Below, piece by piece: positions 51,462 to 57,973 of a DNA stretch of 64,000 bases; the stretch's first letter is position 1; every line of letters begins with the position of its first letter. Source of the DNA: Polyangium mundeleinium (GTDB lineage Bacteria; Myxococcota_A; Polyangia; Polyangiales; Polyangiaceae); contig NZ_JAQNDO010000001.1 in NCBI RefSeq assembly GCF_028369105.1, positions 3,998,501 to 4,062,500 on the forward strand. The letters run 5' to 3'. The position numbers were made by a program, and so were the translations under genes. A model generated the notes under the pieces. It searched no databases and had not been told where the DNA came from. It saw only the letters and a program-made list of their open reading frames with translations.

Positions 51462-53168
51462 ATGGCGAACGCGCGCACGCGGGCCGGATCGAACCTGCTC
51501 CTCGACGAATACTGGGAGTCGGGGGACGACCGTTTCGTCGACGAGGTCCTCTCGCTCACGGCCGGCAAGAAGCTCAAATCCCTCGCCGAACGGTGGCTCA
51601 AGGACAGCCGGCCCTTCGCGCGCCGCACGCTGCTCGCGTACATCGCCGACGGCTGCGACAGGCCGCACCACCGGCCGCTCGTGAAGAGCCTCTTCAAGCT
51701 CGCCGAGAAGGCGCACGACGACGAGCTCGTCGGCCACTTCATGGTCGCCTTCGACAGGCTCGTGGAGCGCAAGCTCGTGGAGAAGTCGCGCTACGACTGG
51801 GCGGGCCGGAGGTCGCTCAAGGTGCGCGTCCTCGTGGGCACGGGCAAACACCCGGTCCGCTTCTGGGGCCGCAACGACAGCGCGCCGCACTTCTCGAAGG
51901 CCACGCGCAACTACCTGCGCCGCCGCGTCCTGCGCTACTTCCGCGACATCGGGCGCAAGGATCCCGTCCGGTACGGCAAGGCGATCCGCAAGGCGCTCGT
52001 GCTCTACCGCGACGATCACCTGGACAAACCCGAGCGCCTGCTCGACGCGTGGAGCTTGCTCCACATGCTCTACCACGGCGCGGCGGCGCTCGATCGGCAC
52101 CCCGATGGCATCCGCGTGGCGAAGGATCGATCCCTCGCCGAGCTCGAACCCGCGCCGCTCTGGCCCGAGGCGTGGCAGGGTTGCTTCGAGGACGTGCTCG
52201 CGCTCGTGACGACCGCGAAGAGCCGCACGGTGCGCGTGTTTGCGGTGGAGATCCTCAAGGCCGGCTACCCGCGTGAGCTCGGCACGCTGACGATGGCGCG
52301 CCTGCGCCCGCTCATCGCGAACCCGAACGAAGAGGTGCAGATCTTCGCGGCCGATCTCCTGCGCACGGCCGAGGGCATTTCGAGCCTCACGGTGGCCGAG
52401 TGGCTGGAGCTGCTCCAGATCGACAACCCGACGGCGCTCGGCTTCCTTTGCGAGGCCATCAAGAAGCACGTCTCGCCCGGGCGGCTCACGCTCGATCAGT
52501 GCGTGGACCTCGCGTGCTCGCCGGTCGCGCCCGTCGCCGAGCTCGGGCTCGACTGGGCCATGACCAAGAAGGCGGCCGGGGTCAAGGCGATCGAGGCGAT
52601 CTTGCGCCTCGGCACGGCGCGGGCGCCGCGCGTGCGCGAGGCCGCGGCGAAGTGGGTCGTGTCGATCCTTTCGACCTCCAAGGAAGCGCGTATGACGCAC
52701 GTCCGCGATCTCGTGGACGCGCGCTACGACGACGTGCGCCGCGAGGCCCTGCAGCTCTTCGAGCGCGACGTGCGTTTCAAGGACGATCCGGCGCTCTGGT
52801 CGGCGCTCTCGGAGAGCCCGTACGATGACGTGCGCGCGTTCTTGCTCGCGCACCTCGTGCAGCGTGAGAAGGCGCTCGGTCCGGCGACGCTCGAGCGGAT
52901 CTGGGCGACGACGATTCTCGCGGTGCACCGCGGCTCGAAGCAGAAGCGTACGGCGCTCTCGCAGATCGCGGCGCGCATCGTGGCGCATCCAGGCGAGGCG
53001 GAGCCGCTCGTGGGCCTGCTCGGGTATGCGCTGCGCAGCGTGCGTCCGCCGGAGCGGCGCGCGGCGCTCGCGGCCGTCTCGCGCGCGGCGTTCCAGGCGC
53101 CGGCGCTTCGCAGCGCGATCGGGCGCAAGTTGCCGGAGCTCTCGCTTTTCCAGGAGGAGAGGGCGTGA
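51462..53168 (+). CDS. HEAT-like repeat protein, first gene of the retron operon
   Basis: 568 aa, cytoplasmic. The N-terminal 180 residues are basic and helical (WLKDSRPFARRTLLAYIADG, DWAGRRSLKVRVLVGTGKHP, RNYLRRRVLRYFRDIGRKDP). From about residue 230 on, helix pairs repeat with a period near 35-40 residues: VRVFAVEILKAGYPRELGTL, VQIFAADLLRTAEGISSLTV, VRREALQLFERDVRFKDDPA, VRAFLLAHLVQREKALGPAT, a HEAT-type solenoid. No nuclease or ATPase motif is seen, so it could be a sensor or scaffold, perhaps binding nucleic acid. Its stop overlaps the start of the SWIM gene (GTGA), so both are co-translated. Confidence 0.8.
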   Translation: MANARTRAGSNLLLDEYWESGDDRFVDEVLSLTAGKKLKSLAERWLKDSRPFARRTLLAYIADGCDRPHHRPLVKSLFKLAEKAHDDELVGHFMVAFDRLVERKLVEKSRYDWAGRRSLKVRVLVGTGKHPVRFWGRNDSAPHFSKATRNYLRRRVLRYFRDIGRKDPVRYGKAIRKALVLYRDDHLDKPERLLDAWSLLHMLYHGAAALDRHPDGIRVAKDRSLAELEPAPLWPEAWQGCFEDVLALVTTAKSRTVRVFAVEILKAGYPRELGTLTMARLRPLIANPNEEVQIFAADLLRTAEGISSLTVAEWLELLQIDNPTALGFLCEAIKKHVSPGRLTLDQCVDLACSPVAPVAELGLDWAMTKKAAGVKAIEAILRLGTARAPRVREAAAKWVVSILSTSKEARMTHVRDLVDARYDDVRREALQLFERDVRFKDDPALWSALSESPYDDVRAFLLAHLVQREKALGPATLERIWATTILAVHRGSKQKRTALSQIAARIVAHPGEAEPLVGLLGYALRSVRPPERRAALAAVSRAAFQAPALRSAIGRKLPELSLFQEERA

Positions 53169-55273
53169 ACGTCGATCTCCGTTATCTGGGCAAGAGCGGC
53201 GTGCTCGGGGCGGCGCAGAGCCTGCTCGTGCGTTTTTCCCCGAACCTCGCGCGGCCGAAGACCTTCTTCGACGCCGAGCTCAAGGATGCGATCCGCTTCC
53301 GCGAGGCCATGAGCGCGCTGCACGACGTGGTCGTCGGCGACCTCAAGTTCCGGAAGAAAGACAAGACCGCGTACCAGGCGTGGAAGAAGGCGGAAGAAGA
53401 GCGCGAGGAACAGCTCAAGGCGCAGCTCTTCGATCAGGCGAAGCGCACCGAGCTCGCGCGGCTCGCGAAGGAGCCGATCCCGCCGAACCTCGACCGCGAC
53501 TTCCGCAAGATGCATCGCCTCTACTGGGATGCGCGCGTCAAGTGGGCGAACGAGCTCGCGCGGCACGATCCGGAGCTCTTCCGCCACCTCGTGCCGTGCG
53601 ACCCGGTCGTGACCGTCGCGCCTGACGTGGTCTTCTTCGAGTGTTTCTCCAAGGACGAGTCGAGCTACGGCTGTTTGTCCGTGGACCGCGACTCGTTCGT
53701 GGGTTCGCAGGAGGCGGGGCTCGGCACGACGAACGTCGACTACTCGATCGCGCTCTACGAACATTTCCAGACGCTGCGGAGCTACCGGAAGACGCGCCTC
53801 TCCGTGGACCCGGCCGGCTTCGACGTGAAGGTCGAGGGGCTCTCGGATTACCGCGAGGAGAAGATCGATCTGCCGCCCTCGTGGCTGCGCGGATTTGGTC
53901 AGATCCAGGCCTCGACGTGCCTGCCGAGCCGCCGCGTGGATCTGCCGGTCGAGGTCGTGTACGCGATCCTCGCGCACTTGAAGCGCCACCGCGAGAAGAC
54001 GGGGCCGCGCAGCATCCGGTTCGTGCTGACGCCGGGCAAGGCGCCGAAGATCATCCTCGACCCGTGGGGGATCGAGATCCAGTCGCGCGGGCCGGTCTAC
54101 GATGGTGGGCTCGAGATCGGCGGGAGCGGCGCGGGCGGCAAGCTGGGCCCGTATCGGTCGGCGCCCACGGGCCGCGAGATCACCGAGGAGGTCAAGATCT
54201 GGGGCCGGCGGCGGCTCTTCGCGCTCGCCCGCGTCCTGCCGCTCACGGAGCGCGTCGAGGTGCGGCTGCTCGGATCGGGCCTGCCGAGCATCTGGATCGC
54301 GCACATGGGCGACATGCGGCTCGTGCTCGCGCTGAGCGGTTGGACCACCAACGATTGGACGAGCGGCTCGGGGCTCGACCTGCTCGCGGGCGCCTACGAG
54401 CCGGATGCGCGCACGATGCAGCAGGCGGATCGGTTCCTCCAGAACGAGCAACGCGCGACGCTGCCCGCGATCGCCGCGGCGACGGGCGCGTCCGAGGAGA
54501 GCCTCGTGCCCGCGCTGCACCAGCTCGCCAAGCGCGGGCAGCTCATCTACGACCACGCCGATCAGGTGTATCGCTACCGGCAGGTGATGCCCGCCGTGCT
54601 GAGCGAGGCCTTTATCGGGCCGGAGCACCCGGAGCTCGTCGAGGGCCGCGCGATGGCCCGGAGCAACGCGGTGACGATCGATCGGGACGAGCTTCTCTCC
54701 GACGGCCGGCGCGCGGTCGTCGGCAAGGCGAAGGGCACGGCGTGCGAGGCGATCTTCGACGAGGACCTCGCGATCAAGAAGGCGAAGTGCTCGTGCTCGT
54801 ACTTCCACAAGAGTGGCCTTCGGGCCGGGCCTTGCCGGCATTTGCTCGCGCTCAAGATGGTGCTCTCGAGCCGCGCCCTGCCGCAGGCGCCGAAGCCCGA
54901 GCCCGCGCCCGAGGCGCCGAAGGCGTCGAAGTGGTCGTCCGGCGAGAGCTTCCCGATCCCGCGCCAGATCCTCGACGACATCCGCAAGGTGGCGAACCGG
55001 AAGAACACCACGGTGTCGCGGGTGCTGGAGCAGGCGTGGGACGTGGCGATGCCGCGGATCCAGGCGGAGCGATCGTGGACCACGGCGCTTGCGCTCGCGG
55101 ACGTCACGCTCGCGCGTTCGCTCGCCACGCGTGTGCCGGCGGACGCCGTGGAGGAGCGGCTCGCGCTCCCGCCCGACGTACTCGCCGAGGTGAAGCGTGT
55201 CGCGGATCGGTTCCGCGCCGAGCGTGCTTCCGTCCTCTGTCTGGCCTGGCTTCTGGGTAGGAAGTCGTTGTAG
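53165..55273 (+). CDS. SWIM zinc-finger protein with winged-helix and tandem ribbon-helix-helix-like segments, retron accessory
   Basis: 702 aa from GTG 53165, with GGAGGAG upstream and a 4-nt overlap with the previous gene. Residues 1-420 form an unrecognised domain with a charged coiled segment at about 75-115. RATLPAIAAATGASEESLVP (about 430-450) and QLIYDHADQVYRYRQ suggest a winged helix. The SWIM motif CxCx(n)CxH is intact at about 541-560 (CSCSYFHKSGLRAGPCRH). The C terminus holds two similar segments, FPIPRQILDDIRKVANRKNT (about 595) and LALPPDVLAEVKRVADRFRA (about 667), like CopG-type ribbon-helix-helix units. This is a DNA- or msDNA-binding look. It lies directly upstream of the msr-msd RNA; a sensor/effector role is inferred. 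Confidence 0.8.
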   Translation: MNVDLRYLGKSGVLGAAQSLLVRFSPNLARPKTFFDAELKDAIRFREAMSALHDVVVGDLKFRKKDKTAYQAWKKAEEEREEQLKAQLFDQAKRTELARLAKEPIPPNLDRDFRKMHRLYWDARVKWANELARHDPELFRHLVPCDPVVTVAPDVVFFECFSKDESSYGCLSVDRDSFVGSQEAGLGTTNVDYSIALYEHFQTLRSYRKTRLSVDPAGFDVKVEGLSDYREEKIDLPPSWLRGFGQIQASTCLPSRRVDLPVEVVYAILAHLKRHREKTGPRSIRFVLTPGKAPKIILDPWGIEIQSRGPVYDGGLEIGGSGAGGKLGPYRSAPTGREITEEVKIWGRRRLFALARVLPLTERVEVRLLGSGLPSIWIAHMGDMRLVLALSGWTTNDWTSGSGLDLLAGAYEPDARTMQQADRFLQNEQRATLPAIAAATGASEESLVPALHQLAKRGQLIYDHADQVYRYRQVMPAVLSEAFIGPEHPELVEGRAMARSNAVTIDRDELLSDGRRAVVGKAKGTACEAIFDEDLAIKKAKCSCSYFHKSGLRAGPCRHLLALKMVLSSRALPQAPKPEPAPEAPKASKWSSGESFPIPRQILDDIRKVANRKNTTVSRVLEQAWDVAMPRIQAERSWTTALALADVTLARSLATRVPADAVEERLALPPDVLAEVKRVADRFRAERASVLCLAWLLGRKSL

Positions 55274-55290
55274 GAATGGTCTTGTCGTCT

Positions 55291-55558
55291 CGTTCGACGC
55301 GCTCGCGTCCAGCCTTGCAAGGAGGTCCGTCCGCCCGAGCCCACCATGCTGCGGCGTTCCGCCGTGGCGGAGTTCGTTCCCCCATGCGTCCCCGCGCCCG
55401 ATTTTCTTTGGGCCCTAAAGCCCCCTACCAGCATCCACTCAGCGGACCCTTGGGTCTGGATGCCGGTAGGGGGCCTAGGGCCTCGGTGATCGGACGTGGT
55501 CCTAGGCGAGTAGTCGGGCGGACGGGCTTCCTTGGAGGGCTGGACGGCGCGTCGAACG
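55291..55558 (+). ncRNA. Retron msr-msd non-coding RNA
   Basis: Long inverted repeats a1 (55291-55338) and a2 (55514-55558) pair over 45 positions: 41 Watson-Crick, 3 G-U, 1 mismatch, plus a 3-nt bulge in a1. Directly after a1 comes AGC, with the candidate branching G at 55339. The msr part has a hairpin with CGGCG/CGCCG (55349-55367) and a GGAG-TTCG-TTCC hairpin (55369-55380). The msd part is a long stem: 55411-55436 with 55458-55482, about 22 bp, one mismatch and a small bulge, closed by a loop with GACC/GGTC. Order a1-msr-msd-a2 and the downstream RT match retrons. The msDNA would start near 55513; its length (about 120 nt) is only an estimate. Confidence 0.9.
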
Positions 55559-55574
55559 GTGCATCAGGGATCGC

Positions 55575-55594
55575 TCGCCCGAGCTCTCGGGCGA
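55575..55594 (+). other. Hairpin in the leader of the reverse transcriptase gene
   Basis: Perfect arms TCGCCCGA and TCGGGCGA with loop GCTC, between a2 and the RT start. Its left arm repeats nine bases of the a1 end including the branch-site AGC (CGCCCGAGC, also at 55332-55340), so it could compete for a2. Confidence 0.6.
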
Positions 55595-55628
55595 TGCGCA
55601 TCGCAACCTCGATCTAGCGGGAGTTGCC

Positions 55629-57341
55629 GTGGGCTTCTGGGACAAAGTCAAGTCCTTCATCGGCACCGGCAAGTCCGGCGAGGGCGAGCCCGAGAAAAAC
55701 GAGCCGGGCGACAAACCGAAGGCGGCATCGGCTTCGACGTCCCCATCGTCGTCGTCGACAAAGTCGACGACGACGGGAGCTGCGACGGCCGCGGTCGCGA
55801 CGTTTACCTCGACGAGCTCCGCGTCTGCGGCGACGCCCGCCAAGAAGAAGGACAAACCGAAGCCGAAGGACCCGTACGACACGTCGGGGATCCTCGGTTT
55901 GTCGGCGGACGAGATGCGCAAGCGCGCGCTCAAGATCAACCCGTACCAGACGGCGTGGATCGGGCGCGTGGACACGATCCCGCCGCAGAGTGACGAGCGC
56001 ACGGCGCTGATCGATCGGGGCCTCATCCTGCGAGGCTTGCTCACGGAAGAGCAGATCGAGGAGATCCACCGCGTCGGTGATCTCTGGCTCAAGCACAACG
56101 AGGCCGCGAGCCTGGCGACCACGGTGGCCCGGAAGAAGGCCGACGAGGCGATCGAGGAGCTGCGTCGCCAGAAGGCCGAGCGCAAGGCGGAGAAGAAGCG
56201 CCTCGCGGCCGAGCGCAAGAAGAACCACGCGGAGGCTGTCGCCAAGCGTCGCGCCGAGGACATCATCTTCCTCGGCCGCGGCGTGTCCGGCAGCCTCGGC
56301 GATCGGCGCGCGAACGTCGAGTCGCTGCAAAAGCAGGGTTTGCCCTTGCTCTCGACGCCGGCGGAGGTCGCGAAGGCGCTTGGTCTGCCGATCCCGCGGC
56401 TGCGCTGGCTTTGCTACCACAACGACGCGGTCGAGAAGCCGCATTACGTGTACTTCGAGGTGCCCAAGCGCTCGGGCGGGATGCGCCTGCTCTCGGCGCC
56501 GCACGAGGCGCTCTCGAAGGCGCAGCAGTGGATCCTCCAGAACGTGCTCGCGAAGCTCTCGGTCGAGGGCGAGGCGCATGGGTTCGTGAAGGGCCGCTCG
56601 ACGGTGACGAACGCGCGGGCGCACCTCGGCCGTGGGACCGTGGTGAACCTCGATCTCTCGGACTTCTTCCCGACGATCACGTTCGGCCGCGTGCGCGGAC
56701 TCTTCGAGTCGATCGGATATTCGCCCGCCGTGGCCACGATCTTCGCGCTGCTCTGCACGGAGTCGCCGCGCCGCAAGGTCGTGTACGACGGGACGACGTA
56801 CTGGGTGGCCGTGGGCGAGCGAGGTTTGCCGCAGGGCGCGTGCACAAGCCCGGCGATCTCGAACCTGGTCACGCGCAAGCTCGATCGGCGCCTCACGGGC
56901 ATGACGCGCAAAATGGGCTGGACGTACACGCGGTACGCAGACGACCTCACGTTTTCCGCGGCGAACGAGCTCGTGGACGATGGCAAAGGCGGCCAGAAGA
57001 AGGGCCGGGGCGACCTTGGGATCCTGCTCGCGCGGGTCCGGCACATCGTGCAGGAGGAGGGGTTCGCCATCAACCCGAAGAAGGGGCGCGTGCAGCACGC
57101 GGGCGGGCGGCAAGAGGTCACCGGAATCGTGGTGAACGACAAGCTCGGGATGCCGCGCGAGGAGGTCCGCAAGCTCCGCGCAATCCTGCACGCCGCAAAG
57201 AAGACCGGGCTCGCCGCGCAAAACCGCGAGAACATCCCCCATTTCGAGGCGTATCTGCAGGGGAAGATCGCCTACCTGAACATGGTCGACCCCGAGCGGG
57301 CGATGCAACTCGCGAAGGCATTCCTCGAAATTCCACGCTGA
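55629..57341 (+). CDS. Retron reverse transcriptase
   Basis: 570 aa from GTG 55629, with GGGAG 5 nt upstream. A Ser/Thr/Ala/Lys low-complexity segment (about 20-80) and a charged coiled coil (about 167-215) precede the RT domain (about 235-550). Retron hallmarks: region X NAxxH (NARAH, about 328-332), GLPQGACTSPAISN (about 399), catalytic RYADDLTFS (YADD about 435-438) and region Y QEVTGIVVND (VTG about 497). No intron-maturase, endonuclease or primase domain is present. It should prime from the 2'-OH of the branching G in the upstream RNA and make branched msDNA. It is the last gene of the operon; a structured repeat begins 29 bp after its stop. Confidence 0.93.
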   Translation: MGFWDKVKSFIGTGKSGEGEPEKNEPGDKPKAASASTSPSSSSTKSTTTGAATAAVATFTSTSSASAATPAKKKDKPKPKDPYDTSGILGLSADEMRKRALKINPYQTAWIGRVDTIPPQSDERTALIDRGLILRGLLTEEQIEEIHRVGDLWLKHNEAASLATTVARKKADEAIEELRRQKAERKAEKKRLAAERKKNHAEAVAKRRAEDIIFLGRGVSGSLGDRRANVESLQKQGLPLLSTPAEVAKALGLPIPRLRWLCYHNDAVEKPHYVYFEVPKRSGGMRLLSAPHEALSKAQQWILQNVLAKLSVEGEAHGFVKGRSTVTNARAHLGRGTVVNLDLSDFFPTITFGRVRGLFESIGYSPAVATIFALLCTESPRRKVVYDGTTYWVAVGERGLPQGACTSPAISNLVTRKLDRRLTGMTRKMGWTYTRYADDLTFSAANELVDDGKGGQKKGRGDLGILLARVRHIVQEEGFAINPKKGRVQHAGGRQEVTGIVVNDKLGMPREEVRKLRAILHAAKKTGLAAQNRENIPHFEAYLQGKIAYLNMVDPERAMQLAKAFLEIPR

Positions 57342-57370
57342 CGCACCGGTCTCAGCGGGGAAGCGCCGCG

Positions 57371-57672
57371 CCGGGGCGCCGCCCCGGACCCCGCGGGGGG
57401 CTGTCCGCCCCCTCGACCCCGGACCAGCCAGGGGCTGGACCCAGGGTTGAAAAACTGCGCTCCGCGCAGTTTTTCAAACAGGCCGACGAAGAAGCCGGGT
57501 CGCCAGCAGAACCCGCAGCGCGGCTGTCTCGGTTGGCAGGGTCGTTGCCGGTCTTGACCGGGCCTGTTCGATGAACTGCGCATCGCGCAGTTCATCGAGC
57601 TTGGGTCCAGCCCCTGGCTGGTCCGGGTGCAGGGGCGGACAGCCCCTGCTGGGGCCTGGGGCAAAGCCCCAG
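57371..57672. repeat. Multi-hairpin structured repeat, copy 1
   Basis: Consecutive stem-loops: CCGGGGC/GCCCCGG (57371-57387); GGGGGC/GCCCCC (57396-57412); CCAGCC/GGCTGG (57424-57438); a perfect 14-bp stem with loop TCC (57447-57477); a 13-bp stem with loop ATC (57569-57597); CCAGCC/GGCTGG (57607-57621); GCAGGGGC/GCCCCTGC (57629-57649); CTGGGGC/GCCCCAG (57656-57672). The two longest stems share the core AACTGCGC-NNN-GCGCAGTT. Outside the stems, AACAGGCC (57475) and GGCCTGTT (57561) can also pair. It begins 29 bp after the RT stop; no coding frame is believable. Confidence 0.85.
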
Positions 57673-57973
57673 CGAGGCGGCTTCGAGAGGAGACCCATGC
57701 GCAGGGCCGTGATCCACCCCCGCTCCGCGACCCAAAGCGGCCAGGTGACCCCGTCCCTCTCCCGCTCCGCGTCCATCCCACGCGAAGGACGCTTCGATCC
57801 TCCCCCGCGCTGCCACCGTACACACCAAGCCGAGCCGTGATCCTCCGGTGGTCACGCCATGTTCCCCGGTGGGACGTCCCGTCCCTCCCGTGGTCACGAC
57901 GCGCGCGGGGGCAGGCGAGCCGTGATCCAAGCCCTTCGACGAAGCGCGCGGGGCCAGGCGAGCCCCGCCGCGC
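57673..57973. other. Spacer between the two structured repeats
   Basis: About 300 bp without a gene I can support. The word GCCGTGATCC occurs three times (57706, 57834, 57917) and GTGGTCACG twice, so it may be degenerate repeat material. Confidence 0.5.

Follow-up and report, generated by a model that had tools for sequence, protein, structure and literature searches.

Retron types have reportedly been classified by Mestre et al. in 2020, and type XIII is said to be one of them. Retrons of this type combine a reverse transcriptase (RT) of their own clade with SWIM and HEAT partner proteins, in the order HEAT, SWIM, ncRNA and RT. Among the papers listed in the open literature no published mechanism for type XIII was found, nor any report of a retron with a sliding clamp, SWIM, WGR or PCNA-like partner, subscription papers and most preprints being outside the scope of the search. 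The term 'XIII' is absent from the main text of PMC12548924, PMC12948488 and PMC8989520, and in those parts of the open literature that were accessible a type XIII retron appears only as a PADLOC prediction. In the retrons reviewed in the available part of PMC12948488, msDNA serves to hold an effector or to switch it.

Among myxobacteria, msDNA has been reported in 27 of 28 strains, with vertical inheritance proposed, and the branch context is CAGC in Mx162 and GAGC in Mx65 of Myxococcus xanthus (PMC6868368, accessible portion). The window analysed here, a 64,000-nucleotide stretch of the genome of the soil bacterium Polyangium mundeleinium, contains a locus that has the GAGC context of Mx65 and, like both Mx162 and Mx65 as that portion of the paper describes them, an N-terminally extended RT; its a1-a2 interval is 175 nt, as against 213 nt in the Mx162/Mx65 comparison. 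In the genus of Myxococcus sp. RHSTA-1-4, each of the 27 genomes examined has an RT_XIII match scoring 494 bits or more in an open frame of 500–527 codons. The single one of these genomes that was opened has its RT after a SWIM protein whose tail is WGR-like, whereas the SWIM protein of the window has a putative ribbon-helix-helix (RHH) tail, and the a1 arm of the opened locus ends in CA followed by GC, giving CAGC. Upstream of this locus lies an ORF of 1850 codons, open to the edge, which is HEAT-like by eye and is not matched by our own HEAT profile. The opened locus likely belongs to the Mx162 lineage, which has not been shown, and the type XIII lineage probably includes the first retron found.

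The initial annotation of the Polyangium locus, made from the sequence alone, had described a complete retron at 55291–57341 and had pointed to SWIM- and HEAT-type partners for myxobacterial retrons, so that the class might be known and the locus new. The parts are present at those coordinates, and the arms, branch-G context, hairpins, msd stem and RT are all conserved in relatives with compensatory changes, so the retron is complete as described; the interval, however, omits the two partner genes upstream, and the full unit extends from 51462 to 57341, all on the + strand, in the order HEAT, SWIM, msr-msd and RT (Table 1). The GTG start of the SWIM gene overlaps the HEAT stop by 4 bases, the ncRNA begins 17 bases past the SWIM stop and the RT begins 70 bases past a2. 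All three proteins match the PADLOC models for type XIII, the RT with an E-value of 5.3e-156 for RT_XIII and 1.4e-106 for the runner-up, RT_other, and the partners with the values given in Table 1; on this evidence the element is, with near certainty, a type XIII retron. Because all three models match, the type is judged to be one already known and the locus a new member of it, and the expected partners and the guess about novelty both proved sound. Retron identity is supported in every sequence test that was made, while the production of msDNA itself is inferred; what the sequence establishes is that the four parts are present, conserved and found together.

Table 1. Positions in the window of the features assigned to the predicted type XIII retron unit
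Feature	Position	Strand	Basis
HEAT/ARM partner, 568 aa, predicted alpha-solenoid	51462..53168	+	PADLOC HEAT-ARM_XIII, E 2e-191
SWIM partner protein, 702 aa, GTG start	53165..55273	+	PADLOC SWIM_XIII, E 6.5e-170
Predicted sliding-clamp (PCNA) fold, SWIM residues ~34-395	53264..54349	+	AF2, Foldseek, VIA-align
SWIM zinc finger CxC..CxH, residues 536-564	54770..54856	+	Pfam SWIM, 2.9e-5
Putative CdbA-like ribbon-helix-helix repeat 1, SWIM residues 593-633	54941..55063	+	9-tail profile vs CdbA 6sbw, 2.5e-9
Putative CdbA-like ribbon-helix-helix repeat 2, SWIM residues 662-702	55148..55270	+	Homology to repeat 1
a1 arm of msr-msd transcript	55291..55338	+	Arm complementarity, ncRNA alignment, covariation
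Candidate branch guanosine in GAGC	55339	+	Sequence context
msr hairpin 1, strongly conserved	55348..55368	+	ncRNA alignment, covariation
msr hairpin 2, short, 3 pairs	55375..55388	+	93.3% of cells paired
msd template with long stem-loop	55392..55513	+	Folding; ends inferred
a2 arm	55514..55558	+	Arm complementarity, ncRNA alignment, covariation
Retron RT, 570 aa, NAxxH + YADD + VTG	55629..57341	+	Pfam/PADLOC profiles, motif positions

The three RT motifs named at the outset are all present, with their codons at 56610 (NARAH), 56934 (YADD) and 57117 (VTG). Comparison with retron RTs and with those of group II introns favors the former, since the best solved relatives of the protein are the retron RTs Ec86, Ec67 and Ec78 and the group II intron RT model reaches only 51.6 bits against a cut-off of 300. 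Some RTs of the same clade (those of L049, L050 and L071) are longer than the window RT at the N-terminus, by some 80 residues. A second retron-like RT is encoded elsewhere in the same genome (L058, G000:C1:13226803-13227804), scoring 373 bits with RT_XIII and 324 with RT_other, without SWIM or HEAT neighbours within the stretch examined; it has counterparts in relatives (L059–L062), and Myxococcus genomes too encode RTs whose partial matches are similar.

The a1/a2 inverted repeat, put at about 45 bp in the initial annotation, consists of main arms of 33 nt (55306–55338 and 55514–55546, 88% complementary) and outer arms of 12 nt (55291–55302 and 55547–55558, 100% complementary), which together do make a stem of 45 positions. 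GAGC occupies 55337–55340 and the guanine of AGC therefore falls at 55339, the candidate branch position named before, and the base immediately before a2 is G55513. The msDNA is predicted to be about 115–125 nt long, its ends being inferred and its 3′ end undetermined. Both msr hairpins are supported by the ncRNA alignment. The msd hairpin is likewise present, with 18 nt per arm at 94% complementarity, and lengthens in the computed fold to come close to, without exactly reproducing, the 22 bp first given. Folding of a 291-nt region yields −193.1 kcal/mol, far below the shuffled sequences (−131.9, sd 5.3; z −11.6; 0 of 200 as low).

Since Rfam gave no match at gathering scores anywhere in the window, the ncRNA was demonstrated through an alignment of our own, comprising ten loci with the window included; two of the others are near-identical and from the same genus, and the ncRNAs of L071 and L072, found later, are omitted. 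In this alignment 95.5% of the cells pair. Two-sided changes occur in 20 of the 63 pairs, against a mean of 10.1 for shuffled alignments (0 of 500 as high) and 1–4 for slid structures, and a further 25 pairs never vary and are uninformative either way. A profile search finds the msr core also in loci of Planctomycetota and Verrucomicrobiota, and the 5′ core of msr hairpin 1 is found in loci of Myxococcus and both these phyla. The msd stem varies in sequence between loci and folds into a long hairpin in 21 of 27 by our count; the cut sequences of L073, L081 and L112 were too short for a verdict, and L057, L086 and L091 fold differently. Varied sequence with a retained long hairpin is the pattern that selection on msDNA shape would produce. 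Adjoining the msd tip is a short, largely unpaired motif, CACTCAG (55436–55442), which by eye seems to be kept within the variable stems of relatives and has a counterpart resembling CTGAGTCAAC in some Planctomycetota.

Among named relatives, Polyangium sp. 6x1 (L072) is the nearest. Three Polyangium loci hold the cassette in the same flanks at 87–92% DNA identity; ten genes of the window, searched for by tblastn, are all present in two of these loci, and seven in L072, which is shorter. G+C-rich stretches that follow the RT in the window (57337–57704) also match other near-cassette places in congeners and look like dispersed repeats. Outside the genus 18 loci were compared: of the ten genes, HEAT, SWIM and RT alone are present in all of them (18/18), and none of the seven flanking genes tested is shared, although two of the loci (L046 and L083) carry little flank. 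Across 60 genomes of the family, including that of the window, RT_XIII (at least 450 bits) and SWIM_XIII (at least 400 bits) each match in 26 places and pair one-to-one, 24 pairs lying within 3 kb, one about 10 kb apart and one on two contigs; in one further genome the SWIM match is broken and no type XIII RT accompanies it. SWIM_XIII matches of any kind occur in 23 of the 60 genomes, two of them weak and one broken. Cassette relatives occur in Myxococcus, Planctomycetota and Verrucomicrobiota, with more distant ones in Bacteroidota, Cyanobacteriota, Pseudomonadota and Bacillota; a single-sequence query found none in viral contigs. Four type XIII-like RTs (L086, L111, L116 and L117) have no SWIM gene in the upstream stretch examined.

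In L071 (G039:C1:15278000-15297500) HEAT, SWIM and msr-msd lie together and the RT lies downstream, separated from the ncRNA by some 8 kb that include other ORFs; this is a natural retron with its RT apart from the rest. The split has been counted as a point for regarding the retron of the window as decayed or inactive. We find that reading barely credible, because the ORFs are open, YADD and the ncRNA are intact, and in two congeners the proteins are 89.5–95.7% identical to those of the window.

The HEAT protein was modeled by AF2 with a mean pLDDT of 92.7 from an alignment of 46 of the 51 eligible relatives. A fold search returned only generic solenoids among the matches listed, the best with Z 11.7 at an rmsd of 18.5, and for this reason no function is read from the fold. 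The protein is short and without a WGR match, in contrast to the long HEAT proteins of other type XIII retrons, which mostly carry an N-terminal WGR domain: Pfam detects it in four of five tested, two of them above its cut-off, whereas our profile of 16 WGR-like SWIM tails misses it. No convincing catalytic domain was seen in either HEAT or SWIM among the matches listed.

More can be said of the SWIM protein. An AF2 model built on 53 rows (52 of the 61 eligible relatives being used) has a mean pLDDT of 75, with values mostly of 72–95 over residues 151–390; confidence dips at 320–340 and is lower in a helical insertion that precedes residue 150. Foldseek against the PDB gives an E-value of 1.6e-9, and the best 50 rows are all clamp chains by title. 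VIA-align superimposes the model on a clamp with Z 19.4 and an rmsd of 2.8 over 232 residues, with a model range of 34–395 across rows; of 997 aligned chains, 534 are at Z 8 or above and a single further one lies between 5 and 8, and it is this clean gap that sets the clamp match clear of other folds. With the same model, PCNA leads in a viral structure library, where the matches are mostly PCNA and other clamps. The SWIM protein is therefore predicted to be a divergent clamp-fold protein with an added winged-helix-like part and a SWIM zinc finger, whose residues Cys 542, Cys 544, Cys 557 and His 559 are invariant across the 53 rows. We consider it very likely that it holds a sliding-clamp (PCNA) fold, a well-supported prediction from one single-chain model that is new here, with ring formation unproven.

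That the resemblance is an artefact of modelling or fold searching has to be considered, as there is a single predicted model and no sequence support. A profile of the 53 SWIM rows finds no clamp chain among PDB sequences at E≤10, and Pfam gives no clamp family on the 53 members among the 25 of 44 families listed. In this lack of detectable sequence similarity, and in the inserted helical segment, winged-helix-like part and SWIM finger, the protein differs from PCNA, 9-1-1 and beta sliding clamps, with which it shares only the predicted fold. The confidence of the model over most of residues 151–390, the exclusively clamp chains among the PDB matches listed, the gap to other folds and the second library, searched with the same model, speak against an artefact, and we give it very little weight. 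The shared fold does not by itself establish ring formation or clamp function. Two simple patterns found no PIP-box-like motif in RT, SWIM or HEAT, and no archaeal virus PCNA was annotated in the stretches examined for a profile comparison, two candidates there lacking a Pfam clamp match. Weak Pfam matches to nuclease families, in only one or two SWIM members (E 0.035 and 0.19), were set aside.

The C-terminal tail of the SWIM protein, modeled at pLDDT under 65, is assigned with high confidence, from sequence comparison, to the CdbA type of RHH. Its two repeats align with each other in hhalign (probability 96.6, E 5.1e-10) and TIGR04563 matches repeat 1 at 0.00063, below its cut-off; the tail gave nothing useful against Pfam and, searched against its own genome, matched only its own gene. 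The accessible part of PMC7156744 describes CdbA as an RHH nucleoid protein of Myxococcus xanthus that binds DNA and c-di-GMP, and whose K8A/S10A and R27A/R30A mutants lose c-di-GMP. On our reading of the alignment repeat 1 keeps only S10 and R27 of these four residues, which vary among the other RHH tails, so a role as a c-di-GMP sensor is weakened and DNA binding is the safer guess. Unlike CdbA, the putative repeats of the window stand in tandem and are fused to a clamp-like protein; this predicted tail, by which the window and its clade differ from other type XIII retrons, is new here.

SWIM proteins were found in 89 of 116 loci, 61 of them tail-less, 17 with a WGR-like tail, 10 with an RHH tail (the window plus nine others, all from its family) and one with another tail, the counts not being fully independent since L035/L110, L038/L143 and L050/L075 are each the same place twice. 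The label 'WGR-like' rests on our profile from 16 such tails and on visual inspection; with Pfam WGR, just 2 of the 53 SWIM proteins gave a match (best E 0.011), and the two WGR-like-tailed SWIM proteins tested alongside the long HEAT proteins gave none. In an RT tree of 105 of the 116 loci, from which L043 (identical in RT to L071) and all rows under 330 aa were left out, the window, the nine other RHH-tailed loci and six tail-less ones form a supported set of 16 (SH-aLRT 97, a quick method without bootstrap). The RHH tail needs two changes on this tree, and a single origin with loss in L050/L075 is not excluded. The change between WGR-like tails, RHH tails and tail-less forms suggests a modular evolution of DNA targeting.

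We propose, with a probability of roughly 0.4, that this is a retron of type XIII in which msDNA controls how a clamp-like DNA-binding protein acts on replicating DNA, both msDNA and phage defence being inferred. The RT would make a branched msDNA primed at G55339 and would form one complex with it, the clamp-like SWIM protein and the HEAT solenoid, the msDNA hairpin occupying or guarding the DNA-binding surface of the clamp-like protein. An infecting phage that altered or removed the msDNA would free this protein or switch it, so that it engages DNA with the aid of the RHH tail (elsewhere a WGR domain), and once engaged it may stop replication or mark the cell for arrest. Every step beyond the anatomy is inferred, with no experiment behind it, and defence directed at replication is itself tentative. 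The clamp-like DNA protein and the solenoid are the effector candidates, no enzyme being visible, and the extra domains (SWIM, WGR, RHH and winged helix) all belong to classes capable of nucleic acid binding. That some related RTs lack a SWIM gene in the stretch examined counts against the proposal.

The same complex may instead serve the host chromosome, in nucleoid organisation, replication restart or repair, with the CdbA-like tail as a nucleoid anchor. The presence of a type XIII-family RT throughout the 27 genomes of the Myxococcus group is unusual for a defence system, fits a housekeeping role and counts against defence; the near-universal msDNA and proposed vertical inheritance in the accessible part of PMC6868368, the constant position of the cassette in Polyangium and the nucleoid function of CdbA (PMC7156744, in part) point the same way. 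The patchy occurrence in the family of the window, the absence of any tested flanking gene common to the 18 outside loci and the scatter over Planctomycetota, Bacteroidota, Cyanobacteriota and Pseudomonadota, as is often seen for defence systems, do not, and we regard a purely chromosomal role as unlikely. Alternatively the clamp fold might be only a scaffold, with SWIM and HEAT as structural or adaptor proteins around the msDNA and the toxic activity residing in an undetected enzyme or a host protein. Clamp-type folds can act as scaffolds, a SWIM finger may bind protein and HEAT is a generic solenoid, but no fourth gene among the ten tested is shared by the outside loci, and a mere scaffold seems unlikely. 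Control of a clamp-like DNA-binding protein by msDNA remains our preferred reading. In its strongest form, the type XIII retron would supply a ring-forming PCNA-like clamp of its own, msDNA would govern where this clamp is placed on DNA, and in Polyangiaceae the clamp would have acquired a domain from a host nucleoid protein as well. This form is unlikely on present evidence; if true, reverse-transcribed DNA would gate a replication clamp.

Type XIII-like retrons are widespread in myxobacteria, as the 27 of 27 genomes of one Myxococcus group and the 26 RT/SWIM pairs in 60 family genomes attest, and are present in several other phyla. The predicted clamp fold offers a first concrete idea of how they might act, and recasts two partners without a known role as a biochemical question, namely whether the clamp-like SWIM protein binds or encircles DNA and whether msDNA controls this. 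If the Mx162-like locus of Myxococcus is as it seems, the finding would bear on the forty-year-old question of the purpose of msDNA in myxobacteria.
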